Source: Bryobacterales bacterium (GTDB taxonomy: Bacteria > Acidobacteriota > Terriglobia > Bryobacterales > Bryobacteraceae). From it: a DNA stretch of 64,000 nucleotides. The notes beneath the pieces are model-generated. The model was given only the letters and a program-made list of their open reading frames with translations. It was not told the origin of the DNA and ran no database searches. The number at the start of each line of letters is the position of its first letter. Position 1 is the first letter of the stretch. Position numbers and translations under genes: made by a program. Of the stretch, positions 16,865-61,440 are shown in pieces. The DNA is taken from the NCBI GenBank assembly GCA_025463005.1, contig JAOAPR010000155.1, positions 1 to 64,000 on the forward strand. The letters are read 5' to 3'.

Positions 16865-18073
16865 TTATGGTTTTGCAAACTTGGCGGGGTCGATAGCGAC
16901 GTTTGTCTTCACGTCGCTCAACTGAAAGGCATCCTTCCCATCCAGCCACGAGAACGTGTACTTGAACGGGAACTTGATGCCGCCCACGTCGCGATAGTCC
17001 GAGTAGTCAGTCTGGGTCGGAACGCGTCCGACGGGCGATGTGCTGTAACGTACCATCCGCACCAGCAAGCCCGAATCCTTATCGAAGTAGAACGTCGCCA
17101 TAAAGCCCCTGGGACCAGTTCCCTGGACAACTTGAACGTCCTTATCGCCGACGCTATCGGGCGAGCCTACGCGCCAATTGTTCAGAATTGTCTTGATCTG
17201 CCCTGGGAAGGACAGCATCGCATCCAGCCGGGCTCCATCGAGTTCACTACCCGTGAGCTCGTACTGTCCCAACAGGCTGCGCGGCGACTTTATCCAACCA
17301 ACTTTGCCGTCGAAGGCCCTGGTGCTGTCTCCCCGTTCCGGGTGATCTTTAAACTGGATCTGCGTGGTGCGTTGATTCGGAGCTTTCGCATAAATCGTGA
17401 ATGAGCCGCCGCCGCCCAATCCTTCGTATCCGACGCTGCTTCCCGTGGCGATAAAGCTAGTGAGGCCAGCCAGCCGCTGAGCGCCGCCGACTGCCGTGAT
17501 GTATTTGTCAAGAATCTGTGTGGCGGAGGGAACTCCCTGAGCGGGCGCGACGAAGTCATCCTTCTCTTCGTTGGGAGTGCCGTACAGAGTATCCAAACCG
17601 ATGGTGGTGGAGGGCCTCAGGCGGCCATGGTGGCAAGTGAAGCACGTCACCGATTGCGCGCCGGAGAAGTTGGTGCGGTTAATGACCGCCACCATTTCTA
17701 CCATCTTTCGCGCGGTCTTTTTTCTCGGAGTGTCGAATATCCAATCCACCTTGTCGGATCCGGCGCCAGGATGGCAATCCGCGCAATCCAAGCCCAGGTC
17801 GGCTGAAATGACCCCCATGGCTCCTAGAAAATCGTCGACGGTGAGCCCCTTGAGCGTGCTGGTGTTGACGTTCTTGAACACCTCGCCCGCCGACTGCCCG
17901 GGCGCCGCTGCGACCGTCTGGGTGTTTGCCGGGGCGGCTTTCGCCGGTGCCGGAGCCGCTTTTGTTTGTCCGGCTTTGTCCTGTGCCGCGGCTGGGCCAG
18001 CCAACTTAACCGCGCACAGCCAGATTACTGCCATTCCTGCGACCGCGAGGGTCACTCTCGACCAAAGCTTCAT
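16865..18073 (-). CDS. Multiheme c-type cytochrome, photosynthetic reaction-centre cytochrome subunit-like
   Basis: Signal peptide; two CxxCH motifs (CADCHPG, CFTCHHG); VFKNVNTSTLKGLTVDDFLGAMGVISADLGLDCADCH; C-terminal outer-membrane lipoprotein-like segment. Confidence 0.75.
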   Translation of the reverse strand: MKLWSRVTLAVAGMAVIWLCAVKLAGPAAAQDKAGQTKAAPAPAKAAPANTQTVAAAPGQSAGEVFKNVNTSTLKGLTVDDFLGAMGVISADLGLDCADCHPGAGSDKVDWIFDTPRKKTARKMVEMVAVINRTNFSGAQSVTCFTCHHGRLRPSTTIGLDTLYGTPNEEKDDFVAPAQGVPSATQILDKYITAVGGAQRLAGLTSFIATGSSVGYEGLGGGGSFTIYAKAPNQRTTQIQFKDHPERGDSTRAFDGKVGWIKSPRSLLGQYELTGSELDGARLDAMLSFPGQIKTILNNWRVGSPDSVGDKDVQVVQGTGPRGFMATFYFDKDSGLLVRMVRYSTSPVGRVPTQTDYSDYRDVGGIKFPFKYTFSWLDGKDAFQLSDVKTNVAIDPAKFAKP

Positions 18074-18709: not shown

Positions 18710-20026
18710 TTAACGCGTTGGCCGGCTGCCCGGCTCCAGGGGGGTCGCAGAATCCAGGAAAATCCAGCACGGAATCGCCGCGGCGTAAAGGATGGCCGAA
18801 ATGTAGAAGGCGATGTTCCAGTTGTTGTTGGTCCAGGCGAGCACATAACCGATCACCGCGGGTGCGACAGCGCCACCCAGGTTGCCCCAACTGTTCATCG
18901 CGCCGGCCAGGGTCCCGGCAAATCGGCCGCCCATGTCCATAGAGGCTGCCCAGGATGGCGGCATAGCCAGATCGTTGAAAAAGCTAGCCAGCGAGATTGA
19001 AATGACCGCGGCGCGGGCGTCCTGCATATAGGTGGTTATGATCAGGAAGGTGCAGGCACCTATATATCCCAAACTGGCGACAATACGCCGGGTGCGAGCG
19101 ACACTCCTGGTCCTGCGCAGCAGCCGCTCGCCCAGGAACACGCTGGCAGGATTCCCCAATCCACCCATGAACAGAGGAAGCACGCCGAACATCGCCGCCT
19201 GCGCTACGTCCATGCCGCGGGCGTCGCGCAGATACGTCGGCAGCCACGTAATGTTGAAGTACCATCCGTAGTTCAAGAAGAAATACTGCCAGCACAGCAG
19301 CCATACGCGGCGCGATCTGACCAACTCTCCCCACGGCGCAGCGGAATCACCGAAGGCTTTATCAGAGCCACGCAGCAGCTCGCGCTCGGCTTCGTTCAGC
19401 TTCGGATGATCCAACGGGTTGTCGCGATACCAGAGAAAGAATGCGATCGCCCAGATCACCCCCAGCACTCCGAACAGTTCGAACGCATGCCGCCATCCGA
19501 CCCACGTGATTACCGCGGCCGCCAAAGGCGGCGTAAAAGCCCCGCCCCAGCGCGCGCTCAGCCACATCAATCCCTGGGCGCGTACGCGTTCGCGGCCGGG
19601 CAGCCAGATGGTGAACATCTTGGTGAGATTCGGGAAACAGCCCGCCTCGCCGGCTCCGAACAGGAATCGCGCTGTGACTAAGGATGCGAAGTTCCACGCC
19701 CATCCGGTGGCCGCGGTAAAAAACGACCACCACAGAACGATGCGGAGGATCACCCGGCGGGGTCCCATCCAATCGCCCAGAAATCCGCCGGGAATTTCGA
19801 ACAGCGAATAGGCCAGCGCGAACGCCGTCAGCACCCAGCCCTTGTGCACGGAGTCGAGGCCGAGGTCCTTGCCGATGTAGGGCAGGGCAAACGAAATCGC
19901 CACGCGGTCGATATAGGTGATCACCGCCAGGGTAACTGTGAACACCAACACCCAATAGCGGACGCGCGTAGGGCGCTGGTGTTGGGGGGCAGAGCCGATG
20001 AATGGGTCGACGGCGGGGTCAGCCAC
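18710..20026 (-). CDS. MFS transporter (anion:cation symporter / ACS type)
   Basis: VFTVTLAVITYIDRVAISFALPYIGKDLGLDSVHKGWVLTAFALAYSLFEIPGGFLGDWMGPR. ORF opens at 20134; GTG at 20026 with an AAAGG RBS removes the overlap with the divergent gene. Confidence 0.9.
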   Translation of the reverse strand: MADPAVDPFIGSAPQHQRPTRVRYWVLVFTVTLAVITYIDRVAISFALPYIGKDLGLDSVHKGWVLTAFALAYSLFEIPGGFLGDWMGPRRVILRIVLWWSFFTAATGWAWNFASLVTARFLFGAGEAGCFPNLTKMFTIWLPGRERVRAQGLMWLSARWGGAFTPPLAAAVITWVGWRHAFELFGVLGVIWAIAFFLWYRDNPLDHPKLNEAERELLRGSDKAFGDSAAPWGELVRSRRVWLLCWQYFFLNYGWYFNITWLPTYLRDARGMDVAQAAMFGVLPLFMGGLGNPASVFLGERLLRRTRSVARTRRIVASLGYIGACTFLIITTYMQDARAAVISISLASFFNDLAMPPSWAASMDMGGRFAGTLAGAMNSWGNLGGAVAPAVIGYVLAWTNNNWNIAFYISAILYAAAIPCWIFLDSATPLEPGSRPTR

Positions 20027-20066
20027 GGCCTTTAGATCTTCGCACGTGTGATAGCATTTTGGCGAA

Positions 20067-21089
20067 ATGCGCACATTGAAAATCGTTTCTCTCATGGCGG
20101 GTGCGGCGATCTTGCTTACGGCGCAATCCCGCACACTCGATATCTATTGGATCGACGTGGAGGGCGGCGCAGCCACGCTGATTGTCGCGCCCTCGGGCGA
20201 ATCGCTGCTGGTCGATACGGGGTTCCCTGGGAACGATGATCGCGATGCGAAGCGAATCGCCGCGACTGCGGTAGCCGCCGGACTGACCAGGATCGACAAT
20301 CTGGTGATCACTCATTTCCATGGCGACCATGTGGGCGGCCTGGCAGCGCTCTCAAAGATGATCCCGATCCGCAAAATCTACGATCACGGCGAATCGATCG
20401 AGAAGTCGCAAGAGAAAGGCGCGACGCTGTGGCAAGATTACCTCGCGGCGGCGGGAAACCGGCGCACCGTGGTGAAGCCCGGCAATAAGATTCCGCTTGC
20501 GGGCGTGGATATTACTGTTGTCAGCGCTAATGGCGAGGTCATTTCACAGCCGATCAATCACGGATTCGTAAACAAGCTCTGTGATGGCGCGGAGCGCAAG
20601 CCCACGGACAATACCGAGAACTCGCGCAGCACGGGCTTCCTGCTGACCTATGGAAAGTTCACGTTCCTCGACGTGGGCGATCTCACCTGGGACCGGGAAT
20701 TGATGCTCGGCTGTCCGGTGAACAAGGTCGGCGAGGTCACGCTGCTGCAAGCGACGCATCATGGTTTTTCGAACGGTCAATCCGGCGCACCGGCACTGAT
20801 CTGGTCGCTCAAGCCGCAGGTGGTCGTGGTGAACAACGGCGCGCGCAAGGGTTTCAGCAACGGAGGATACGAAACGCTGGCCAAGATCCCGGGGGTGGAA
20901 GGAATCTGGCAGGGCCACAAGGGCGCCATGAATGACGCCGATCACAATACGTCCGAAGATATGATCGCCAACCTGGAAGAGGGCGCAGCGGACAAGGGCA
21001 ACACGATCAAGGCGTCGGTCTCGAGCGACGGCAAGTTCATGGTCACTAACAATCGGAACAAGTTCAGCAAGACGTATACTGCGCGCTAG
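20067..21089 (+). CDS. Secreted metallo-beta-lactamase-fold hydrolase (ComEC C-terminal-like)
   Basis: TLDIYWIDVEGGAATLIVAPSGESLLVDTGFPGND...VITHFHGDHVGGLAAL. Confidence 0.88.
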   Translation: MRTLKIVSLMAGAAILLTAQSRTLDIYWIDVEGGAATLIVAPSGESLLVDTGFPGNDDRDAKRIAATAVAAGLTRIDNLVITHFHGDHVGGLAALSKMIPIRKIYDHGESIEKSQEKGATLWQDYLAAAGNRRTVVKPGNKIPLAGVDITVVSANGEVISQPINHGFVNKLCDGAERKPTDNTENSRSTGFLLTYGKFTFLDVGDLTWDRELMLGCPVNKVGEVTLLQATHHGFSNGQSGAPALIWSLKPQVVVVNNGARKGFSNGGYETLAKIPGVEGIWQGHKGAMNDADHNTSEDMIANLEEGAADKGNTIKASVSSDGKFMVTNNRNKFSKTYTAR

Positions 21090-21229: not shown

Positions 21230-22237
21230 ATGCGATCCAAAATTGTGGTTTTCGCCGTAACGAGCGCGCTGCTGGCAGTCAACGCCGCGGGCCAAGGCAA
21301 GGCGACATCCGTTCGCTGCGATCGCGCGTGTCTGGACGCTTATGTCGACAAATATCTCGACGCTATGATCGCCCACGATCCGTCCAAGGCCCCGTTCGCG
21401 CGCGGCGTCAAGTTCACCGAGAACGGCCAGCGCCTGGAGCCTGGCGACGGCCTTTGGAACACCATGACCGGCAAGGGGACGTTCCGTCTTTTCGTCACCG
21501 ACGTCGAGGCGCAGCAGGTCGCGTTTCTGGGAAGCATCACCGAAGCCGGGACCGGCGCCGTGATTGGACTCCGTCTGCGGATCCGCAACAACCAGATCAC
21601 CGAAGCCGAGCACTTTATCCAGCGCAGTCCAAACTCGGCCGCGGGTTTCGAGCGGATTGGCTACAAGTGGACCGAGGCCGTCCCGCCCGCCGAGCGCATG
21701 TCGCGCGAGGAGCTTGTGAAAACCGCCAACATGTATTTTTCCGGCATGCAGAAGAACGACGGCAAGGGCGACTATCCGTTCGCCGACGACTGCAACCGGA
21801 TCGAAAACGGCACGCTGACCACCAACCAGCCGACGCCTCAGGGCAAGCAGAGACCTGATCCGAAAACTGCCACCGGCTATTCAGGCCAGTGGAGCTGCAT
21901 GGAGCAGTTCAAGAGCGGACTGCTGCACTTCGTCACGCGCATTCGCGATCGGCGTTATGTTGCCGTAGATCCTGAGCGCGGCCTGGTATTCAGCCTGATC
22001 TTTTTCGATCATTCCGCCGGAGACACGCGAAACTTCGAAACACCCGACGGCCGCAAGGTGAGCGCCGGCCCGCAGCAGCCCTGGACCTGGCAACTGGTGG
22101 AGCTTTTCGAGATCCGGCAAGGCAAGCTGCATCAGATTCAGGCCATCATGGAGCGCTCTCCTTACGGGATGAACTCCGGCTGGAGCTCCTGGGAAGACGG
22201 GATGAGCGACCGTGGCCGCGATGTCGCCAAACAATAA
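21230..22237 (+). CDS. Secreted four-Cys tandem NTF2/SnoaL-like protein, paralog 1
   Basis: Signal peptide; CDRACLDAYVDKYLDAMIAHDPSKAPF; second half ELVKTANMYFSGMQKNDGKGDYPFADDCNRIENG...CMEQFKSG...IRDRRYVAVDPERGLVFS. Confidence 0.75.
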   Translation: MRSKIVVFAVTSALLAVNAAGQGKATSVRCDRACLDAYVDKYLDAMIAHDPSKAPFARGVKFTENGQRLEPGDGLWNTMTGKGTFRLFVTDVEAQQVAFLGSITEAGTGAVIGLRLRIRNNQITEAEHFIQRSPNSAAGFERIGYKWTEAVPPAERMSREELVKTANMYFSGMQKNDGKGDYPFADDCNRIENGTLTTNQPTPQGKQRPDPKTATGYSGQWSCMEQFKSGLLHFVTRIRDRRYVAVDPERGLVFSLIFFDHSAGDTRNFETPDGRKVSAGPQQPWTWQLVELFEIRQGKLHQIQAIMERSPYGMNSGWSSWEDGMSDRGRDVAKQ

Positions 22238-22246
22238 ACAATAAAT

Positions 22247-22783
22247 ATGACGTTCGTGATTTTTGTTTTAACGCTGCTTAGTTTCCAGGCTCCGCTCGCT
22301 ATCGACAACCCACGAGTGCAAGTTCGGGAACTGGAAGGCGCTGTGGATTCGATCCCCTACGATTCGGTGTGGGTTTCCCGTACGGGGCGCGCAGTTTTCT
22401 TGAAGAATGGTAGTAAGCACGAGGCGGACGGCAAAGGTATTCTGATCGGTCTCAGGGACCTCAGGGTGCCGCCGCTTCCCAACACGTCGGGTTATCCGCT
22501 GGCGATGCCTCGGCCGGGAAGCAAGAAGTTACTCGAAAACGACCGCGTCATTGTTTGGGATTACGCTTGGACTCCCGACGTCCCAACTCCGATGCACTTC
22601 CACGACAAGGATGTGGTGGTGTTTTATCTCGAAGACGGCGCACTCCAATCCACCACGCCCAGTGGTGAGAAGACCGTGAACGAATACAAGCCTGGCATGA
22701 TCCGATTTAACCTGCGCGACCGGACGCACACGGAAACGCTGATCCGCGGCAAGCAACACGCCATCATTACAGAGCTGAAATAG
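22247..22783 (+). CDS. Secreted cupin-like protein
   Basis: Signal peptide; VIVWDYAWTPDVPTPMHFHDKDVVVFYLEDGALQST...GMIRFNLRDRTHTETLIRGKQHAIITELK. Confidence 0.6.
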   Translation: MTFVIFVLTLLSFQAPLAIDNPRVQVRELEGAVDSIPYDSVWVSRTGRAVFLKNGSKHEADGKGILIGLRDLRVPPLPNTSGYPLAMPRPGSKKLLENDRVIVWDYAWTPDVPTPMHFHDKDVVVFYLEDGALQSTTPSGEKTVNEYKPGMIRFNLRDRTHTETLIRGKQHAIITELK

Positions 22784-22784
22784 C

Positions 22785-23825
22785 ATGAGGAAATTCGCAG
22801 CGGCTCTCGCATTCTCTCTTCAGGTAGCTGGCTGGGGACAGAGTGCCTGCGATCGCGCGTGCCTTGAAAATTTCGTCGATCAATATATGGATGCGCTGAT
22901 CGCTCACGATCCCAAGAAACTGCCGATGACCGCGCGCGTGAAAAATACCGAAGATGCCGTGCGTCTGGAGCCCGGCGATGGGTTTTGGCGAACCGCAAAC
23001 GCGAAGGGTTCCTACCGGCTGTTTGTGACCGACACCGAAACCGGGCAGGTAGCTTTCATGGGAACTATGCGCGAAGATCCCAGCAACGCGGTAATCGTGG
23101 CCATTCGCCTGAAAGTCGAAAACCGCCAGGTTTCCGAGATCGAGAACCTGGTGGTGCGGAACGCACAGGCCGCCGCGAATCTGGAAAAGTTGGGCGCTCC
23201 CAATCCCGTGTTTCTGGAAGCGCTTCCGGTAGCGCAGAGGGCGTCGCGCGCGGAACTGATCCGGGTCGCCGACATGTATTTCTCCGGGCTGGAGAAAAAC
23301 GACGGCAAAGGAGAGTATCCGTTCGCGGACGGCTGCGAGCGCATTCAAAACGGCGTTCAGACTACGAACAATCCGAACGCAGCGACGCAGTCTTCGCCAC
23401 CGCCTGGGCGCGGCGGGCGCGGTGGAGATGGCAAACAACCCGCGGCTCCGCCCAAACCGCAGGGTCTGCAAATCAACATCGTCGCCATGGGTTGCATGGA
23501 GCAGTTCAAATCCGGCTATTTCCGCTTTGTGAACCGAATTCGCGATCGCCGTTTTGTGGTTGTCGACCGGGAGCGCGGGTTGGCACTCGCCATCACTGCT
23601 TTCGATCAGCCCGCCGGCAAATACGCCACGTTCAAGCTGGCAGATGGGCGCGAGATCACGGCGGGTCCGGAACGCCCGACTACGCTCGAAATAGCGGAGC
23701 TGTTTAAAATCGAAAACGATAAGATCCGGCGCGTGGAGGCCGTGCAGATGCAGATCCCGTACGGCATGCTTTCAGGCTGGAGTAGTTATGAGGACGGTAT
23801 GTCCAATCGAGCGAGGACACAGTAA
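22785..23825 (+). CDS. Secreted four-Cys tandem NTF2/SnoaL-like protein, paralog 2
   Basis: CDRACLENFVDQYMDALIAHDPKKLPM; ADMYFSGLEKNDGKGEYPFADGCERIQNG; GCMEQFKSGYFRFVNRIRDRRFVVVDRERG. Confidence 0.75.
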   Translation: MRKFAAALAFSLQVAGWGQSACDRACLENFVDQYMDALIAHDPKKLPMTARVKNTEDAVRLEPGDGFWRTANAKGSYRLFVTDTETGQVAFMGTMREDPSNAVIVAIRLKVENRQVSEIENLVVRNAQAAANLEKLGAPNPVFLEALPVAQRASRAELIRVADMYFSGLEKNDGKGEYPFADGCERIQNGVQTTNNPNAATQSSPPPGRGGRGGDGKQPAAPPKPQGLQINIVAMGCMEQFKSGYFRFVNRIRDRRFVVVDRERGLALAITAFDQPAGKYATFKLADGREITAGPERPTTLEIAELFKIENDKIRRVEAVQMQIPYGMLSGWSSYEDGMSNRARTQ

Positions 23826-23827
23826 TC

Positions 23828-24784
23828 ATGGCTTTGCATCCGCAGTGTAAGGCGTTTCTCGATATGCTCGCCGCGGCGGGCGGGAAACCGATCGAACAGC
23901 TCCCGGTGACGGAAGCCCGGATGGTCGCCCCGGCGCTGATCGACTTGAGCGGACCCGAAGAACCGGTCGCTGAGGTCGAGAATCGCACTATTCCCGGTCC
24001 AGCCGGACCGATCGCCGTCCGTGTGTACCGACCCGTGCAGGAGGAAACGGTCCCGGCGCTGGTATTCTTCCATGGCGGCGGCTTCGTGATCTGTAATCTC
24101 GATACGCACGATCGGCCATGCCGCAGTCTCGCCAATGCATCGGGCTGTACAGTTATCGCAGTGGATTATCGGCTCGCGCCCGAACACAAATATCCTGCCG
24201 CGGTCGAGGATGCGTATGCGGCCACCCAGTATATTTCCGAGCACGCCGCGGAATTCGGCATCGATCCGAACCGGATTGCGGTTGGCGGGGACAGCGCGGG
24301 CGGGAATCTGGCCACCGTTGTGTCCTTCTTATCGCGGGATCGGGGCGGACCGCAATTGAAGTTTCAGCTCCTGATTTATCCTGTTGTAGACTTCGCTGAC
24401 AACAGCCCGTCCATGCAGCAATATTCGAAGGATCACTTCCTGACACGCGAAAGCATGGATTGGTTCACGGAAAGCTACCTGCCCAGCCGCGAGGCGGGAC
24501 TCGAGCCGTCGGCGTCCCCGCTGAACGCAACAGATTTCCGGGGTCTTCCACCGGCCATGATCATCACCGCAGAATGCGATCCGCTCCGCGACCTGGGAGA
24601 GGCCTACGCGCGTAAGTTGCAGAGCGCCGATGTTCCAGTCGAGCTGAAGCGGTACGAAGGCATGATCCACCCGTTCTTGCAGTTTGGCGGGATCATCGAT
24701 ACGGCCAAGGTCGCGATGGCAGACGCCGCGTCTGCTCTGCGTCGCGCGCTAAAAGCTGGTGCTTTCGCCGGCGCTTCCCTGTGA
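23828..24784 (+). CDS. Alpha/beta hydrolase, HSL-type esterase/lipase
   Basis: PALVFFHGGGFVICNLDTHDRPCRSLANASGC...NRIAVGGDSAGGNLATVV (HGGG and GDSAGG). Confidence 0.93.
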   Translation: MALHPQCKAFLDMLAAAGGKPIEQLPVTEARMVAPALIDLSGPEEPVAEVENRTIPGPAGPIAVRVYRPVQEETVPALVFFHGGGFVICNLDTHDRPCRSLANASGCTVIAVDYRLAPEHKYPAAVEDAYAATQYISEHAAEFGIDPNRIAVGGDSAGGNLATVVSFLSRDRGGPQLKFQLLIYPVVDFADNSPSMQQYSKDHFLTRESMDWFTESYLPSREAGLEPSASPLNATDFRGLPPAMIITAECDPLRDLGEAYARKLQSADVPVELKRYEGMIHPFLQFGGIIDTAKVAMADAASALRRALKAGAFAGASL

Positions 24785-24815: not shown

Positions 24816-25241
24816 ATGAAATATTGGCTGACGATCACAATTTTGTCGGCTGCGGCGATCCTGATGGGAGCCGACGCCGCCACCTTTGTAGGGCACGACA
24901 AGGTCGCCGACGCGCTGGCCAAGGGAGGGTCGCTGGCCGCGACCAAGGAGTATACGGTTTCGGGTGCCCACCGCAGCGGACCGGGCCAGGTGGAAGTACA
25001 CGACAAAGAGACCGACATTCTCTACGTGACCGACGGCGAAGCCACCTTCATCACCGGCGGTACCATGGTCGGCGGAAAGTCGAGCAAGGCTGGTCAATGG
25101 CTGGGCACCGACATCACCGGTGGACAAACTCACCATCTGGTCAAAGGCGATGTCGTGATGATCCCGGCCGGAATGCCACACTGGTTCAAGGAAGTTCCCA
25201 AGTCGGTTAGCTATTTCGTAGTGAAAGTGCTGAAGGAGTAA
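24816..25241 (+). CDS. Secreted cupin-domain protein
   Basis: MKYWLTITILSAAAILMGADAATFVGHDKV; KETDILYVTDGEATFITGG; LVKGDVVMIPAGMPHWFKEVPKSVSYFVVKV. Confidence 0.8.
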   Translation: MKYWLTITILSAAAILMGADAATFVGHDKVADALAKGGSLAATKEYTVSGAHRSGPGQVEVHDKETDILYVTDGEATFITGGTMVGGKSSKAGQWLGTDITGGQTHHLVKGDVVMIPAGMPHWFKEVPKSVSYFVVKVLKE

Positions 25242-25244
25242 GTC

Positions 25245-26267
25245 ATGTCCCGAAAGATTTCCGTACTGATTCTCGCGCTAGCCTTGGTGGCCGCTCTGGC
25301 GCCCGCCGCCAACCTGGATTTTAATAATCCTACGGGCACGCAGGGCCTGATCATGATCGACAAACTGGGCGGCTTCGTGCGGTTCTTCGATCCGGTGAGC
25401 TTCAAAGAGCTGTCGAACTTCACGATCCCAGCCGGGCCGCCGCACGAGCTTGCTATCTCTCCGGACCACAAGACCGCCTACATCCCGATATACGGCGACG
25501 GCGTGTACGGCCGCAATCCGAATCCAGGCCACGTCATCGTGGTGGTCGATCTGGCGTCCAAGAAGATGACGGCGACTATCGACGTTTCGCCCTACCAGGC
25601 TCCGCATGGACTACAGGTCGACGCCAATGGCACGTTGTACGCCACCTGCGATCTGAGTCGCAAGTTCCTGGTGATCGATCCTAAATCCCGCACTATCACC
25701 GCCGCAATCGATACCGAGGGAACCGGCCACTGGATCGCCGTGCTGCCGGATGGCAGCAAAGCGTACGTCGCCAACAAGAATGACCGCCCGTTTGTAAGCG
25801 TGATCGACATCAAGGCTCGCAAGATGACCGGCAAGGTCTCCATGCCGAACGGCACACAAGGAATCACCATCTCGCCTGACGGAAAGCGTGTGCTGGCGGT
25901 GGATTACAAGGACCCGAAGTTCGCCATAATCGACACCGCCACCGACAAAGTGGTGGATACCGTCGCGGTGGAGAAGAACGCGCGCGGTCCCTTTCGCATA
26001 AAGTATTCTCCGGATGGGAAGACGCTGGTTACCTGCGACGATCAGGAGGGATTGGCGAATACCATGAGCACCTCGGATCTTCACGGCAAGCAGCAGGTGC
26101 TGACCGTCGGAAAGACGCCATTTGGGATCGCCTTCAGCGCCGATTCGAAGACAGCCCTCGTTTCGAATCACGGCGACGGGACAATTTCCGTGATCGACCT
26201 GCCGAGCGGCAAGGTAACGAATACCTTCAAGGCCGGGACGGGAATCGAGACGCTGTCTTATTACTAG
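25245..26267 (+). CDS. YncE-like / cytochrome-D1-like beta-propeller protein, secreted
   Basis: Repeats such as HELAISPDHKTAYIPIYGDGVYG, GITISPDGKRVLAVDYKDPKFAIIDTATDKVVDTV, TALVSNHGDGTISVIDLPSGKVTNTF. Confidence 0.8.
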   Translation: MSRKISVLILALALVAALAPAANLDFNNPTGTQGLIMIDKLGGFVRFFDPVSFKELSNFTIPAGPPHELAISPDHKTAYIPIYGDGVYGRNPNPGHVIVVVDLASKKMTATIDVSPYQAPHGLQVDANGTLYATCDLSRKFLVIDPKSRTITAAIDTEGTGHWIAVLPDGSKAYVANKNDRPFVSVIDIKARKMTGKVSMPNGTQGITISPDGKRVLAVDYKDPKFAIIDTATDKVVDTVAVEKNARGPFRIKYSPDGKTLVTCDDQEGLANTMSTSDLHGKQQVLTVGKTPFGIAFSADSKTALVSNHGDGTISVIDLPSGKVTNTFKAGTGIETLSYY

Positions 26268-33627: not shown

Positions 33628-35196
33628 TTAGCGCGGCAGAGTGAACGTGTACAGCGTATCGCCCGCACCGACCACCAGATACTGGCGGCCATCCATTTCA
33701 AACGTAATCGGCGCGTTGCTCACGGCGGTGTGCAATCCGGCATGCCACAGGATCTTGCCATTGGCCGGATCCCAAGCGATCAAGTTGCCCGTGGGATCGC
33801 CGCCGAAGAGTAGTCCGCCTGCGGTGCTCAGCAGACCGGAGCGGCTTCCGCCCTGGTTGGGGTAGCGGTGGCTCCACACGATCTTGCCGGTCTTGTAGTC
33901 GATCGCCTGCAGCAGGTTCTGCGACCATACACTCTGATCGCGACCCCCATAGCCCTCCGGCGTTTCCTCTGTATCAGTGAGCCAGTACACCGCATACGAT
34001 TCGGTTGCGTGCGTATAGAACAAACCGGTATCGGGATTAAATGTCGGCGCGAACCAGTTCGCGACGCCGCTCGAATTCGGGGAGACCAGCACACCGTCGG
34101 TCTTGGGATCTTTGGCCGGATCAGGCACCGGCCGGCCTTTAGCATCGATACCCTTCGCCCAATTCAGCGTTTCGACAAACGGCGCCGTCAGGAGATTCTG
34201 CCCGCTGGTCCGGTCGAGCAGGACGAAGTACCCGTTGCGCGCGGCCTGCGCCAGCATTTTGCGAGGCTGCCCCTTGAATTGACCGTCGATGAGAATGGGC
34301 GTTTCGACGTTGTCCCAATCGTGCGTGTCATGCGGGGAAACCTGGTAATACCAGACGATTTTGCCCGTGTCCGGATTCAGCGCCACAATCGAGCAGGTAT
34401 ACAGGTTGTCGCCCTTGCGGCTCTGCGCGGCGTGCACAGGATTCGGATTGCCGGTGCCCAGGTAGTAGAGATTCAGCGCGGGATCATACGTGCCGGAGAG
34501 CCACGTCATACCGCCGCCGTGCTCCATCGACAGCTTCGACGGCCATGTCTCGGAGCCGGGTTCGCCGGGCCGCGGCGTTGAGTTCCAGCGCCACTGCACC
34601 TCGCCGGTTTCCGGATCGCGCGATTCCAGGTACCCCGGCAGATCCAGCGAATCGCCGCCCACCCCGATGATGATGTGATTCTTAATGACCAGCGGCGCGG
34701 ATGTGCAGAAATACTCCTGCTTCACATTGGCGATCTGATGATTCCATCGCAGCTTCCCGGTCTTGGCGTCTAGCGAAATGAGGTAACAGTCGGGTGTTTC
34801 GAAATACAGCCAGTCGCCGTACATGCCGAAGCCGCGATTGCCGATATGAATCCCTCCTTTGGATTCCCATGTGTAGTGCCACAGCTCGCGTCCGCTCCGT
34901 GCGTCCACGGCCCAGGCGTTATCCGGCACCGCGAAGTACAGAATGCCATTGACCGCGAGCGGCGTAGCCTTAATCTGGACCGCTGCACCTGCCGTGAACC
35001 GGCGTGTCCACGCGAGATTCAGCGTGTTCACGTTCGACCGATTGATCTGCGTGAGCGGGCTGTAGCGGCGCCCGGTGTAGTCGCCGTTGTAGGTCGGCCA
35101 AGCGTCGGTGGGAGGCTGAAGGAGCTTGGCGGGATCGAGCGGTTGCGCGGCCAATGCCGCCGCCACAACAAACGAGGCGAGAAATATTCGTTTCAT
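33628..35196 (-). CDS. PQQ-dependent alcohol dehydrogenase, methanol/ethanol type
   Basis: Signal peptide; DAWPTYNGDYTGRRYSPLTQINRSNVNTLNLAWTRRF; VSPHDTHDWDNVETPILIDG; W-motif propeller repeats. Confidence 0.88.
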   Translation of the reverse strand: MKRIFLASFVVAAALAAQPLDPAKLLQPPTDAWPTYNGDYTGRRYSPLTQINRSNVNTLNLAWTRRFTAGAAVQIKATPLAVNGILYFAVPDNAWAVDARSGRELWHYTWESKGGIHIGNRGFGMYGDWLYFETPDCYLISLDAKTGKLRWNHQIANVKQEYFCTSAPLVIKNHIIIGVGGDSLDLPGYLESRDPETGEVQWRWNSTPRPGEPGSETWPSKLSMEHGGGMTWLSGTYDPALNLYYLGTGNPNPVHAAQSRKGDNLYTCSIVALNPDTGKIVWYYQVSPHDTHDWDNVETPILIDGQFKGQPRKMLAQAARNGYFVLLDRTSGQNLLTAPFVETLNWAKGIDAKGRPVPDPAKDPKTDGVLVSPNSSGVANWFAPTFNPDTGLFYTHATESYAVYWLTDTEETPEGYGGRDQSVWSQNLLQAIDYKTGKIVWSHRYPNQGGSRSGLLSTAGGLLFGGDPTGNLIAWDPANGKILWHAGLHTAVSNAPITFEMDGRQYLVVGAGDTLYTFTLPR

Positions 35197-58089: not shown

Positions 58090-58242
58090 GAAGCTGCAAA
58101 ATCCAAGCCTTCATTGTAAGCGATCCGCTCGAAATCGCCTGTATTGTTGATGGCCTTCTCCGGACTCTTTCAGTGTTTGACTTCGCTCCTTCAGCGCGGT
58201 ACGATACCGGCGATGCAACGCTTAAAGGCAGAAGTGTGTGCT

Positions 58243-58632
58243 ATGAGAAGAGGATATCTGGGGGCAGCATTGGCCTGCATCGGCGTGCTATTTGTCGCAA
58301 CGCCCACTTGGGCCCATCATTCATTCGCAGCCGAATACGATTCGAACCAGCTGATCACGCTCACCGGCAAAATCACCAAAGTGGAGTGGACTAACCCCCA
58401 CATCTACATCCATATCGATGTTCCGGAGGGCGGCAAAGTCATCACCTGGGCGCTCGAAGGCTATCCGCCAAACACGCTCAAACGGACCGGATTTCCGCGC
58501 GACGTGTTGAAGGAAGGCGACACCATCACGATCACGGCCTATAAATCTAAAGACGGTTCGAATACCGGCGCCGGGCGCGAAGTCACTTTCCCCGATGGCA
58601 GCAAGAAGTTCGCTGGGCCCGTCGGCCGCTAA
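58243..58632 (+). CDS. DUF6152 family secreted protein (copy C)
   Basis: MRRGYLGAALACIGVLFVATPTWAHHSFAAEYDSNQLITLTGKITKVEWTNPHIYIHIDV. Confidence 0.8.
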   Translation: MRRGYLGAALACIGVLFVATPTWAHHSFAAEYDSNQLITLTGKITKVEWTNPHIYIHIDVPEGGKVITWALEGYPPNTLKRTGFPRDVLKEGDTITITAYKSKDGSNTGAGREVTFPDGSKKFAGPVGR

Positions 58633-58656
58633 GCCCTGCTCCCATCTGAGGTTTCC

Positions 58657-59505
58657 ATGACAAAATTCGCTAGTTCTTTCATAGCGGTTGCGGCCGCCAG
58701 CCTGCTGATTTCGCTCCCGGGTTTCGGGCAAGGCCAGGGAAAGGGCAAAGGGAAGGGCGCAGCTCCCAAGGGACCGACTGCCGTGGTTCACAAACCCATT
58801 CCGCGCATGCCGGACGGCAAACCGGACCTGAGCGGCACATGGCAGGGCGGCGGCGTGAGCATCACCGGCGAAGACGGCGCTCCCCCGCTGAATCCGCTTC
58901 CTCCGATCGATAACCATCCGGTCAACCGCCAGCCTCTGACCTATAAGCCTGAGTTCGACGCGGTTCGCAACGCCAAGAATTACACCACGCTCGACGATCC
59001 CACGCTGTACTGTCTGCTGCCCGGTATCCCGCGCATCGTGGGCATGCCCATGCCGATGGAGTTCGTCCAGACTCCCAAGATGATCGCGATCCTGTATGAA
59101 TCCTTCCGCGCCTGGCGCCGCATCCCGATCGGCGACACCCTCAAGCATCCGGATGACATCACGCCCACCTGGATGGGCGACTCAGTTGGGAAATGGGAAG
59201 GCGACACGTTGGTGGTGGACACCATCGGCTTCAACGATAAAACTTGGATTGCCGGCACCGGCACCACCCACACCGAGCGAATGCACGTGGTGGAGCGCTA
59301 CACGTTAAACGACGACGGCAGCATGAGTTGGGAAGCCAAGGTGGACGATCCAGGTGCGCTGGCAGCGCCGTATGTCACGGGCGGCGTGTTGCGGGCGCCT
59401 ATCGGCGTGCGGGTCGAGGAGTACGAGTGCATCGAGAATAATCCCGATCCCAGCCATATGAAGAAGGCCGCAGAGCTCGAAACCAAGGGTAAGGGGAAAC
59501 AGTAA
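58657..59505 (+). CDS. Secreted hypothetical protein of an acidobacterial family
   Basis: Signal peptide; GQGQGKGKGKGAAPKGP; IPRMPDGKPDLSGTWQGGG; WMGDSVGKWEGDTLVVDTIGFNDKTWIAGTGTTHTERMHVVERYTLNDDGSMSWEAKVDDPGAL. Confidence 0.75.
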   Translation: MTKFASSFIAVAAASLLISLPGFGQGQGKGKGKGAAPKGPTAVVHKPIPRMPDGKPDLSGTWQGGGVSITGEDGAPPLNPLPPIDNHPVNRQPLTYKPEFDAVRNAKNYTTLDDPTLYCLLPGIPRIVGMPMPMEFVQTPKMIAILYESFRAWRRIPIGDTLKHPDDITPTWMGDSVGKWEGDTLVVDTIGFNDKTWIAGTGTTHTERMHVVERYTLNDDGSMSWEAKVDDPGALAAPYVTGGVLRAPIGVRVEEYECIENNPDPSHMKKAAELETKGKGKQ

Positions 59506-60524
59506 TGCGCGCCAGCGTTGGGCTGGCCGCTGTACTTGTTCTCGCGAGCAGCGTGGCCGGCCAAGGCCGGGGAGGCCGAGGCAACGCAGCACCCCCGGCC
59601 CCGGGCCCGTGCGATCGTCCCTGTCTCGAAGGGTTCGTCAACCAATATCTGGATTCTCTGGTGGCGCACAACGCGTTCGGGCTTCCGCTCGCTCAGAAGG
59701 TCAGGTTCAGCGAGAATGACCAGCTTCTCGATCTTGGCGACGGGCTGTGGAACGTCACCACCGATCTGGGTACCTACAAGCTGTATGTGAGCGATCCTCA
59801 GAGCGGCCAGGTTGGCTTTTTCGGAACGGTCCGGGAGAACGGCAGGCCGACGGCGCTTGCTGTGCGGCTGAAAGTGGACAACCGCAAGATCAGCGAGATC
59901 GAGACACTGGTGTATCGAGCGAGCGCCGGTCCCCCTCCGGGCGGCCGCGGAGGGCGTAGCGGCGATGCGAAGGCTCCGCCTCCTCCACCACCTCCGCCGA
60001 CAGGCGCCGCCGCGCTGGAGGAAATGAAGGTGGATCCGGTATTCCTCGAGATCGTGCCAGCCGATCAGCGCGTTTCGCGCGAGGAACTGGTAAAACGCGC
60101 TAACACCTATTTCGACGCGATCGAGCAGGGAAACGCTCCCGCGGCCGCTTTCGACCCGCAATGCAATCGTGTCGATAACGGAGTGAAAGTAGCGCCCAAC
60201 TGCGCTGAACAGATCAATTCCAAGGTACTGAGCTACATCCAAACGGTCTATCCGCGCCGTCCTGTCGTCGTGGACGAGGAACGGCAACTGGTCTTCGGAT
60301 TTTTCATGTTCCAGCAGCCGGGCGACCTGCTTTCCGTAGAATCGCCGGGACGCGGAAACTACAAATTCCCGGATTCCGCCACCCAGCCGGGGTTTACCGA
60401 GGTCGCACAATTGTTCAGGATCAAAGACGGCAAGATTCGCAAAATGGAAGCGCTGACATTAGCCGTGCCATACGGCACACCGAACCCATTCTTTAACGAC
60501 GATTGGCGCCGGCCAAAGAAATAG
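59505..60524 (+). CDS. Secreted four-Cys tandem NTF2/SnoaL-like protein, paralog 3
   Basis: CDRPCLEGFVNQYLDSLVAHNAFGLPL; ELVKRANTYFDAIEQGN...CNRVDNG...CAEQINSKVLSYIQTVYPRRPVVVDEERQLVFGFFMF; starts on the stop codon of the preceding gene. Confidence 0.75.
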   Translation: MRASVGLAAVLVLASSVAGQGRGGRGNAAPPAPGPCDRPCLEGFVNQYLDSLVAHNAFGLPLAQKVRFSENDQLLDLGDGLWNVTTDLGTYKLYVSDPQSGQVGFFGTVRENGRPTALAVRLKVDNRKISEIETLVYRASAGPPPGGRGGRSGDAKAPPPPPPPPTGAAALEEMKVDPVFLEIVPADQRVSREELVKRANTYFDAIEQGNAPAAAFDPQCNRVDNGVKVAPNCAEQINSKVLSYIQTVYPRRPVVVDEERQLVFGFFMFQQPGDLLSVESPGRGNYKFPDSATQPGFTEVAQLFRIKDGKIRKMEALTLAVPYGTPNPFFNDDWRRPKK

Positions 60525-60531
60525 GAATCAC

Positions 60532-61440
60532 ATGCTGCGAAAACTCTTTCTTACCGGTTTAGCTGCGGTCGCAGCATTCGCGCAGGGGCGCGCCGGTCCT
60601 CAGGGACCCTGCGATCGTGCGTGTCTGGAAGGATTCGTCAACCAGTATCTGGAAGCACTGGTGGCGCACGATCCCACGCGTCTGCAAATGACTCCCGATG
60701 TCCGTTTCAGCGAGAACGACGTGCCGTTGAAGCCGGGCGAAGCCCTGTGGAAAACCGCCAGCGGCCTGGGCACCTACAAGCTGTACTTCGCCGACACTCA
60801 AACCGGCCAAGTGGGATTTTTCGGGACTATTCGCGAAAATGGCCGACCGGCATCGCTCGTACTGAGGTTAAAGGTCGAGAACCGCCGCATCAGCGAGATC
60901 GAAACTCTGGTTCTGCGCGGTGCGGGCGCCGCAACAAACATGGAACGCGCCGGCACCCCCGATCCAGTCTTGACCGAGACCGTTCCGGTAGCGGAGCGCC
61001 TTCCACGGACCAAGCTGATAGCCACCACGAATCTGTATTTCGAAGCGATCGAGCAGGGTAACGGCGGAGTCGCTCCCTTTCACAAGGAATGCAACCGGTT
61101 CGAGAACGGGACCCTGACGTCGGGACCGCAAGGCTGCTCAGCACAGCTCGATACGCACATCTTCGACTACATCCAGAAGATCTACCCGCGGCGTTTCGTG
61201 GTGGTGGACGAAGAGCGGCAACTGGCATTCGGATTCTTCATGTTTAACCACCCCGGCGATATCACCTGGATCAAGAACGCCGACGGCACCCGGCGGGAAA
61301 TGGGCGCCGCTGCTACGCGGCCGTTTAGCGTCGACGTCGCCGAGCTGTTCCGCATCAAGGACGGCCAGATCCGCAAGGTCGAAGCGCTGATGGTCAGCCT
61401 GCCCTACGGGCAGAAGAGCCCCTACGTTCCCCAGCAGTAG
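60532..61440 (+). CDS. Secreted four-Cys tandem NTF2/SnoaL-like protein, paralog 4
   Basis: CDRACLEGFVNQYLEALVAHDPTRLQM; TNLYFEAIEQGNGGVAPFHKECNRFENG; YIQKIYPRRFVVVDEERQLAFGFFMF. Confidence 0.75.
   Translation: MLRKLFLTGLAAVAAFAQGRAGPQGPCDRACLEGFVNQYLEALVAHDPTRLQMTPDVRFSENDVPLKPGEALWKTASGLGTYKLYFADTQTGQVGFFGTIRENGRPASLVLRLKVENRRISEIETLVLRGAGAATNMERAGTPDPVLTETVPVAERLPRTKLIATTNLYFEAIEQGNGGVAPFHKECNRFENGTLTSGPQGCSAQLDTHIFDYIQKIYPRRFVVVDEERQLAFGFFMFNHPGDITWIKNADGTRREMGAAATRPFSVDVAELFRIKDGQIRKVEALMVSLPYGQKSPYVPQQ

Follow-up and report, generated by a model that had tools for sequence, protein, structure and literature searches.

The window, that is, the whole stretch of 64,000 nucleotides that was analysed, carries four genes of a family of tandem NTF2-like proteins that appear to be exported, P1 to P4 (Table 1). 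The genome holds eight such copies on four contigs, the other four lying outside the window. P1 and P2 were 47% identical over 338 alignment columns (E about 1e-115), and every motif that the initial annotation had quoted for them was present in the translated open reading frames and in the P1-P2 alignment; P3 and P4 are the two further paralogs of which it had spoken. Fungal 'DUF8021' proteins may carry a motif similar to CDRACL. The four open reading frames from P1 to the esterase gene run head to tail on the plus strand, 9, 1 and 2 bp apart, and the coordinates bear out the spacing of 9 and 1 bp given earlier for the gene between P1 and P2. P3 and P4 form the end of a conserved four-gene block (58150-61440), which begins with an exported 'HHSFAAEYDS' protein followed by the exported 'DGKPDLSGTW' protein. 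Elsewhere in the window, an exported protein (16865-18073) has a reaction-centre-cytochrome-like N-terminal part (CytoC_RC, E 4e-11), and a PQQ-family match lies at 34189-35100.

Table 1 Genes at and around the tandem NTF2-like pairs of the window
Feature	Coordinates	Strand	Remarks
P1, predicted exported tandem NTF2-like protein	21230..22237	+	335 aa; conserved residues of both halves all kept
Small exported protein with remote C-terminal cupin domain	22247..22783	+	178 aa; separates P1 and P2
P2, predicted exported tandem NTF2-like protein	22785..23825	+	346 aa; Q at the position equivalent to P1 E192
LipP1-type esterase of the hormone-sensitive-lipase family	23828..24784	+	318 aa; NF058653, 412 bits, cut-off 350
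Second small exported cupin	24816..25241	+	Cupin_2, E 1e-7
YncE-like beta-propeller protein	25245..26267	+	
Exported 'DGKPDLSGTW' protein, no Pfam family	58657..59505	+	in conserved block with P3-P4
P3, third paralog, partner of P4	59505..60524	+	
P4, fourth paralog	60532..61440	+	

Synteny comparisons showed that the P1-P2 core is kept and that P1 and P2 are adjacent in every locus of the genus examined. The gene between them, which had been called a cupin, is present in most relatives and missing in two genomes (G408 and G409); its remote similarity to cupins stood (PDB 3lag, E 0.0015; 2fqp, E 0.006), but no Pfam cupin model passed its cut-off, the best being Cupin_2 with E 0.17 in one homolog. 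The esterase does follow P2 directly in the window, as had been pointed out, but it lies outside the conserved core and only the closest relatives have it there. As functional partners, the esterase and an IlvD-type dehydratase (PRK06131) that precedes P1 in two relatives were both dismissed, since each is missing from most P1-P2 loci.

P1 matched no model in Pfam or NCBIfam, and P2 matched only nos_propeller, below the cut-off (E 0.18). A Pfam scan of 24 homologs brought no named family over its cut-off; weak matches to SnoaL_2 (PF12680) were seen in 4 of the 24 (best E 0.0039) and in neither P1 nor P2. Sequence and profile searches of the PDB with the P1/P2 family gave no convincing match, and no characterised family was found; the initial annotation had likewise been unable to attach a characterised function. 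Among plasmids, matches were found in Novosphingobium and Croceicoccus, none in a named family and the sole annotated one a 'hypothetical protein'. The family was present in 13 of 23 genomes in a survey of the genus, with up to about a dozen copies each, and in at least 14 of 396 genomes in a phylum sample in which five candidates per genome were scored. Within the taxonomic family around the Altererythrobacter genome G416, 26 of 151 genomes had it. Many copies were also found in gammaproteobacterial MAGs and in one further Acidobacteriota genome (G417). The search for taxonomic spread thus placed members in the Bryobacteraceae, other Acidobacteriota, Gammaproteobacteria and sphingomonads, in a distribution that is patchy yet heavily duplicated, and encountered no family of known role. 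In a quick LG+G4 tree with several long branches, P2 was the sister group to the P1 clade and was found only in Bryobacteraceae. The same tree mixes the taxonomic groups, with 33 label changes where the minimum would be 5, suggesting that transfer or loss occurred repeatedly. Soil acidobacteria and aromatic-degrading sphingomonads share a large, heavily duplicated and apparently exported family for which neither Pfam nor NCBIfam has a model.

AlphaFold models were obtained for P1 (23 homologs used; pLDDT 88, pTM 0.86) and for P2 (pLDDT 84, pTM 0.82). In the P1 model, a helix (32-47), a strand (56-64), a short helix (74-77) and four long strands are followed by a helix (159-175), a strand (184-192), a short helix (223-228) and four long strands; the P2 model repeats the same order of long helix, strand, short helix and four long strands twice over. 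When the halves were compared with each other by hhalign, they aligned with a probability of 94.8 (P 5e-8, 24% identity), and E64-N65-G66 was paired with E192-N193-G194. The two similar halves that had been read from each protein are thus recovered in both. In Foldseek searches of the PDB, the first match of P1 was the tandem enzyme Lsd19 (E 8e-7), followed by designed NTF2 folds, AclR, ChaU, NsrQ, ketosteroid isomerase (KSI) and limonene epoxide hydrolase; P2 matched designed NTF2 folds, limonene epoxide hydrolase, NsrQ and KSI-fold proteins, with E-values weaker than those of P1. Normalisation to the whole protein gave low TM-scores and normalisation to the single-domain targets gave about 0.45-0.7, as is to be expected of a two-domain protein. 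Both predicted models show twice over the helices on a curved mixed sheet that define the NTF2-like superfamily. The models, the Foldseek matches and the homologous halves together give good support to the tandem SnoaL/NTF2 fold of the initial annotation, with P1 and P2 each predicted to be a fusion of two homologous NTF2-like barrels. The fold is known and the family architecture is new.

Among known systems, the tandem NTF2 epoxide hydrolases-cyclases of the Lsd19/MonB type (PDB 4rzm, 3rga), which are enzymes of polyether biosynthesis, likewise have two barrels per chain. Lsd19 is the best full-length match of P1, but the two are only 7-8% identical, and the overall rmsd of about 16 A indicates that the barrels are placed differently in P1; a PDB profile search found no sequence likeness to Lsd19 or MonB at E 10. 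Limonene epoxide hydrolase, KSI, NsrQ and AclR each match one barrel, but they are single-domain proteins with no four-cysteine pattern and no detectable sequence similarity to P1 or P2.

The N-termini of family members, judged by reading them rather than by counting signal scores, look like Sec or lipoprotein signals, and the signal-less members, which are sphingomonad proteins, lack the N-terminal C30-C34 motif. This agrees with the secretion proposed earlier, and we infer that P1 and P2 are exported. All four cysteines are present in 100 of 123 distinct units, which are not phylogenetically independent. The C30-C34 couple is complete in 109 units, wholly absent from 10 and mixed in 4; C188 and C223 occur together in 105 units and are both absent from 5, with C188 alone in 13. 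No unit lacks both C30 and C188. As the cysteines of each couple are mostly kept or lost together, two disulfides, C30-C34 and C188-C223, are plausible. An arrangement as C30-C188 and C34-C223 is also possible: three members with a signal peptide retain only C30 and C188.

Members of the family were repeatedly found as unlike pairs. P3 and P4 are adjacent in four other loci (L114, L120, L122 and L128), where they stand behind the same two exported proteins in the same order as in the window. Placement in the tree showed that two separate neighbouring genes at one locus (L029) match the two units that are fused at another (L109). In such pairs, one partner retains the conserved residues, whereas its neighbour has an altered second half: at the position of E192, most P2 have Q and P3 has D, G or E, and the sphingomonad fusions have V there in their second unit, with W in place of R190. 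These observations suggest that the unlike partners act together, presumably by physical pairing.

Gene-context analysis, for which genes were called with a home-made gene caller, linked several relatives to oxidising enzymes. In a gammaproteobacterial MAG, a single frame of 1268 aa (L107:822-4628) joins two family copies, the second without part of its second half, to a PQQ dehydrogenase propeller and a cytochrome c. A PQQ gene lies within 2 kb of six loci in three genomes (G416, G420 and G421), against 0.7 expected (Poisson P 9e-5), counted from the PQQ matches listed, which leave out some weak ones. As an out-of-sample check, ten further sphingomonad loci were chosen only by an open frame of about 600 aa or more holding two copies. 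At nine of them a PQQ dehydrogenase gene lies on the same strand no more than about 120 bp away, and at the tenth one lies at 2.3 kb; the loci are orthologs, so that this is conserved synteny and not nine independent events. One of these dehydrogenases passed TIGR03075 (549 bits, cut-off 480). A second type of link was seen at three sphingomonad loci (L143, L146 and L147) with a common operon of a GlcD-like FAD oxidase, a signal-less tandem-NTF2 member, an MFS transporter and a gene of the RPE65 family. The L147 copy of this last gene passed the NOV2 lignostilbene dioxygenase model (876 bits, cut-off 650). RPE65 genes within 5 kb were counted at four loci against 0.96 expected (P 0.016), a modest signal; orthologous operons are not independent. 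At another locus (L144), a LigB-type ring-opening dioxygenase adjoins a family member, and TonB-dependent receptors lie near members in several loci.

Since relatives stand beside, and once are fused to, enzymes that oxidise alcohols or lignin-type aromatics, P1 and P2 probably serve outside the cytoplasm, as cofactor-free enzymes or enzyme-pseudoenzyme pairs for small oxidised molecules or as partners of other enzymes. The links to PQQ and lignostilbene-dioxygenase genes are not universal, because no RPE65 or lignostilbene-dioxygenase gene was found in the window's genome and neither RPE65 nor PQQ genes were found in G417. The PQQ link is confined to one subfamily of the tree, and among the matches listed no family copy in the window's genome adjoins a PQQ gene. 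Carrying a function over from the sphingomonads to P1 and P2 therefore means extrapolating across subfamilies.

NTF2 enzymes are often cofactor-free and work in a hydrophobic cone. KSI has an acidic general base after strand 1 and a Tyr/Asp oxyanion hole, and limonene epoxide hydrolase has an Asp-Arg-Asp triad with Tyr and Asn in the pocket. In the tandem NTF2-like family, E64, W76, D91, R115, E125, E127, Y169, C188, R190, R241 and D247 are conserved at 93-100% and E105 at 85%; E64 is near-invariant (81 of 85 units), and its position in the motif would put it at the place of the KSI general base. A precedent at the level of the NTF2 superfamily is given by LdpA and PcfL, sphingomonad gamma-formaldehyde lyases that free formaldehyde from lignin dimers and so supply stilbenes to lignostilbene dioxygenases, with 62 NTF2 homologs in one sphingomonad (PMC12997858, PMC11323797). 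Some members of the P1/P2 family share operons with such a dioxygenase. Unlike LdpA and PcfL, P1 and P2 are double-barrel proteins, appear to be exported and lie in a genome where no lignostilbene dioxygenase gene was found. When two single SnoaL proteins from neighbouring genes were searched against the PDB, none of the chains returned was identifiable by name as LdpA.

Taking together the cofactor-free character of many NTF2 enzymes, the LdpA/PcfL precedent and the position of E64, we propose, with a probability of roughly 45%, that P1 and P2 act outside the cytoplasm on small oxidised products of plants or lignin, by acid-base chemistry that needs no cofactor. The two exported proteins, each with two SnoaL/KSI-type barrels stabilised by cysteines, would act as an unlike pair in which P1 is intact in both halves and P2 has an altered second half. 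The pocket of the first barrel would host an isomerisation, dehydration, lyase or hydrolase reaction with E64 as the candidate base, and the substrate may be a small alcohol, aldehyde or phenolic from plants or lignin that neighbouring oxidases handle. A concrete first set of substrates is suggested by the fusion and by the operons with a lignostilbene dioxygenase. If the proteins are catalytic, NTF2 chemistry, which covers isomerases, cyclases and formaldehyde lyases, would extend to the periplasm and be tied to PQQ-dependent alcohol oxidation.

NTF2 folds also act as binders and scaffolds, and the main rival, to which we give a smaller though substantial chance, is that the members are non-catalytic periplasmic binders or chaperones whose double cones pass a hydrophobic small molecule to a PQQ dehydrogenase, an oxygenase or a TonB-dependent receptor. 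The close linkage to PQQ dehydrogenases and the fusion to one of them, the TonB receptors close by, the altered second half of one partner and the strong duplication per genome, as with binders of many ligands, all fit such a role. However, a polar set (E64, R115, E125, E127, R190 and R241) is kept across wide divergence, which exceeds what a hydrophobic binder needs, and signal-less members sit within catabolic operons among other enzymes. It is improbable that the family provides accessory subunits or modulators for quinoprotein dehydrogenases at large, in which case the Bryobacteraceae copies would act in trans on the many PQQ-type proteins of their genome. About 70 PQQ-family matches in the window's genome would suit this role, as would the direct fusion and the nine fused-copy loci beside a PQQ dehydrogenase, but G417, although rich in copies, lacks PQQ genes, none of the window-genome copies adjoins a PQQ gene among the matches listed, and the PQQ link belongs to a single subfamily. 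Immunity, effector or cell-surface interaction proteins with no tie to catabolism would also be exported, cysteine-containing, multi-copy and patchy with signs of horizontal transfer, yet this is very improbable, as the recurrent neighbours are metabolic with no toxin-system or phage gene among them, and phage records gave no match to the family.

Returning to the proposed acid-base chemistry, a broader form of it is doubtful but can be stated: the family may be a new extracytoplasmic, cofactor-free NTF2 class working as obligate unlike pairs (four barrels) with PQQ quinoproteins; together they would make up a periplasmic module for the catabolism of lignin or plant alcohols, spread horizontally across Acidobacteriota, Gammaproteobacteria and sphingomonads. 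A sugar-acid-like substrate for P1 and P2 is likewise possible, since in two relatives an arabinonate/dihydroxy-acid dehydratase gene lies directly before P1 (L018:2709-4418 and L019:2668-4386), and PRK06131 was over its cut-off in L019. The dehydratase is absent from the corresponding place in the window, where the enzymes nearest to P1 and P2 are the esterase and an MFS transporter of the galactonate type (18710-20134, below cut-off).
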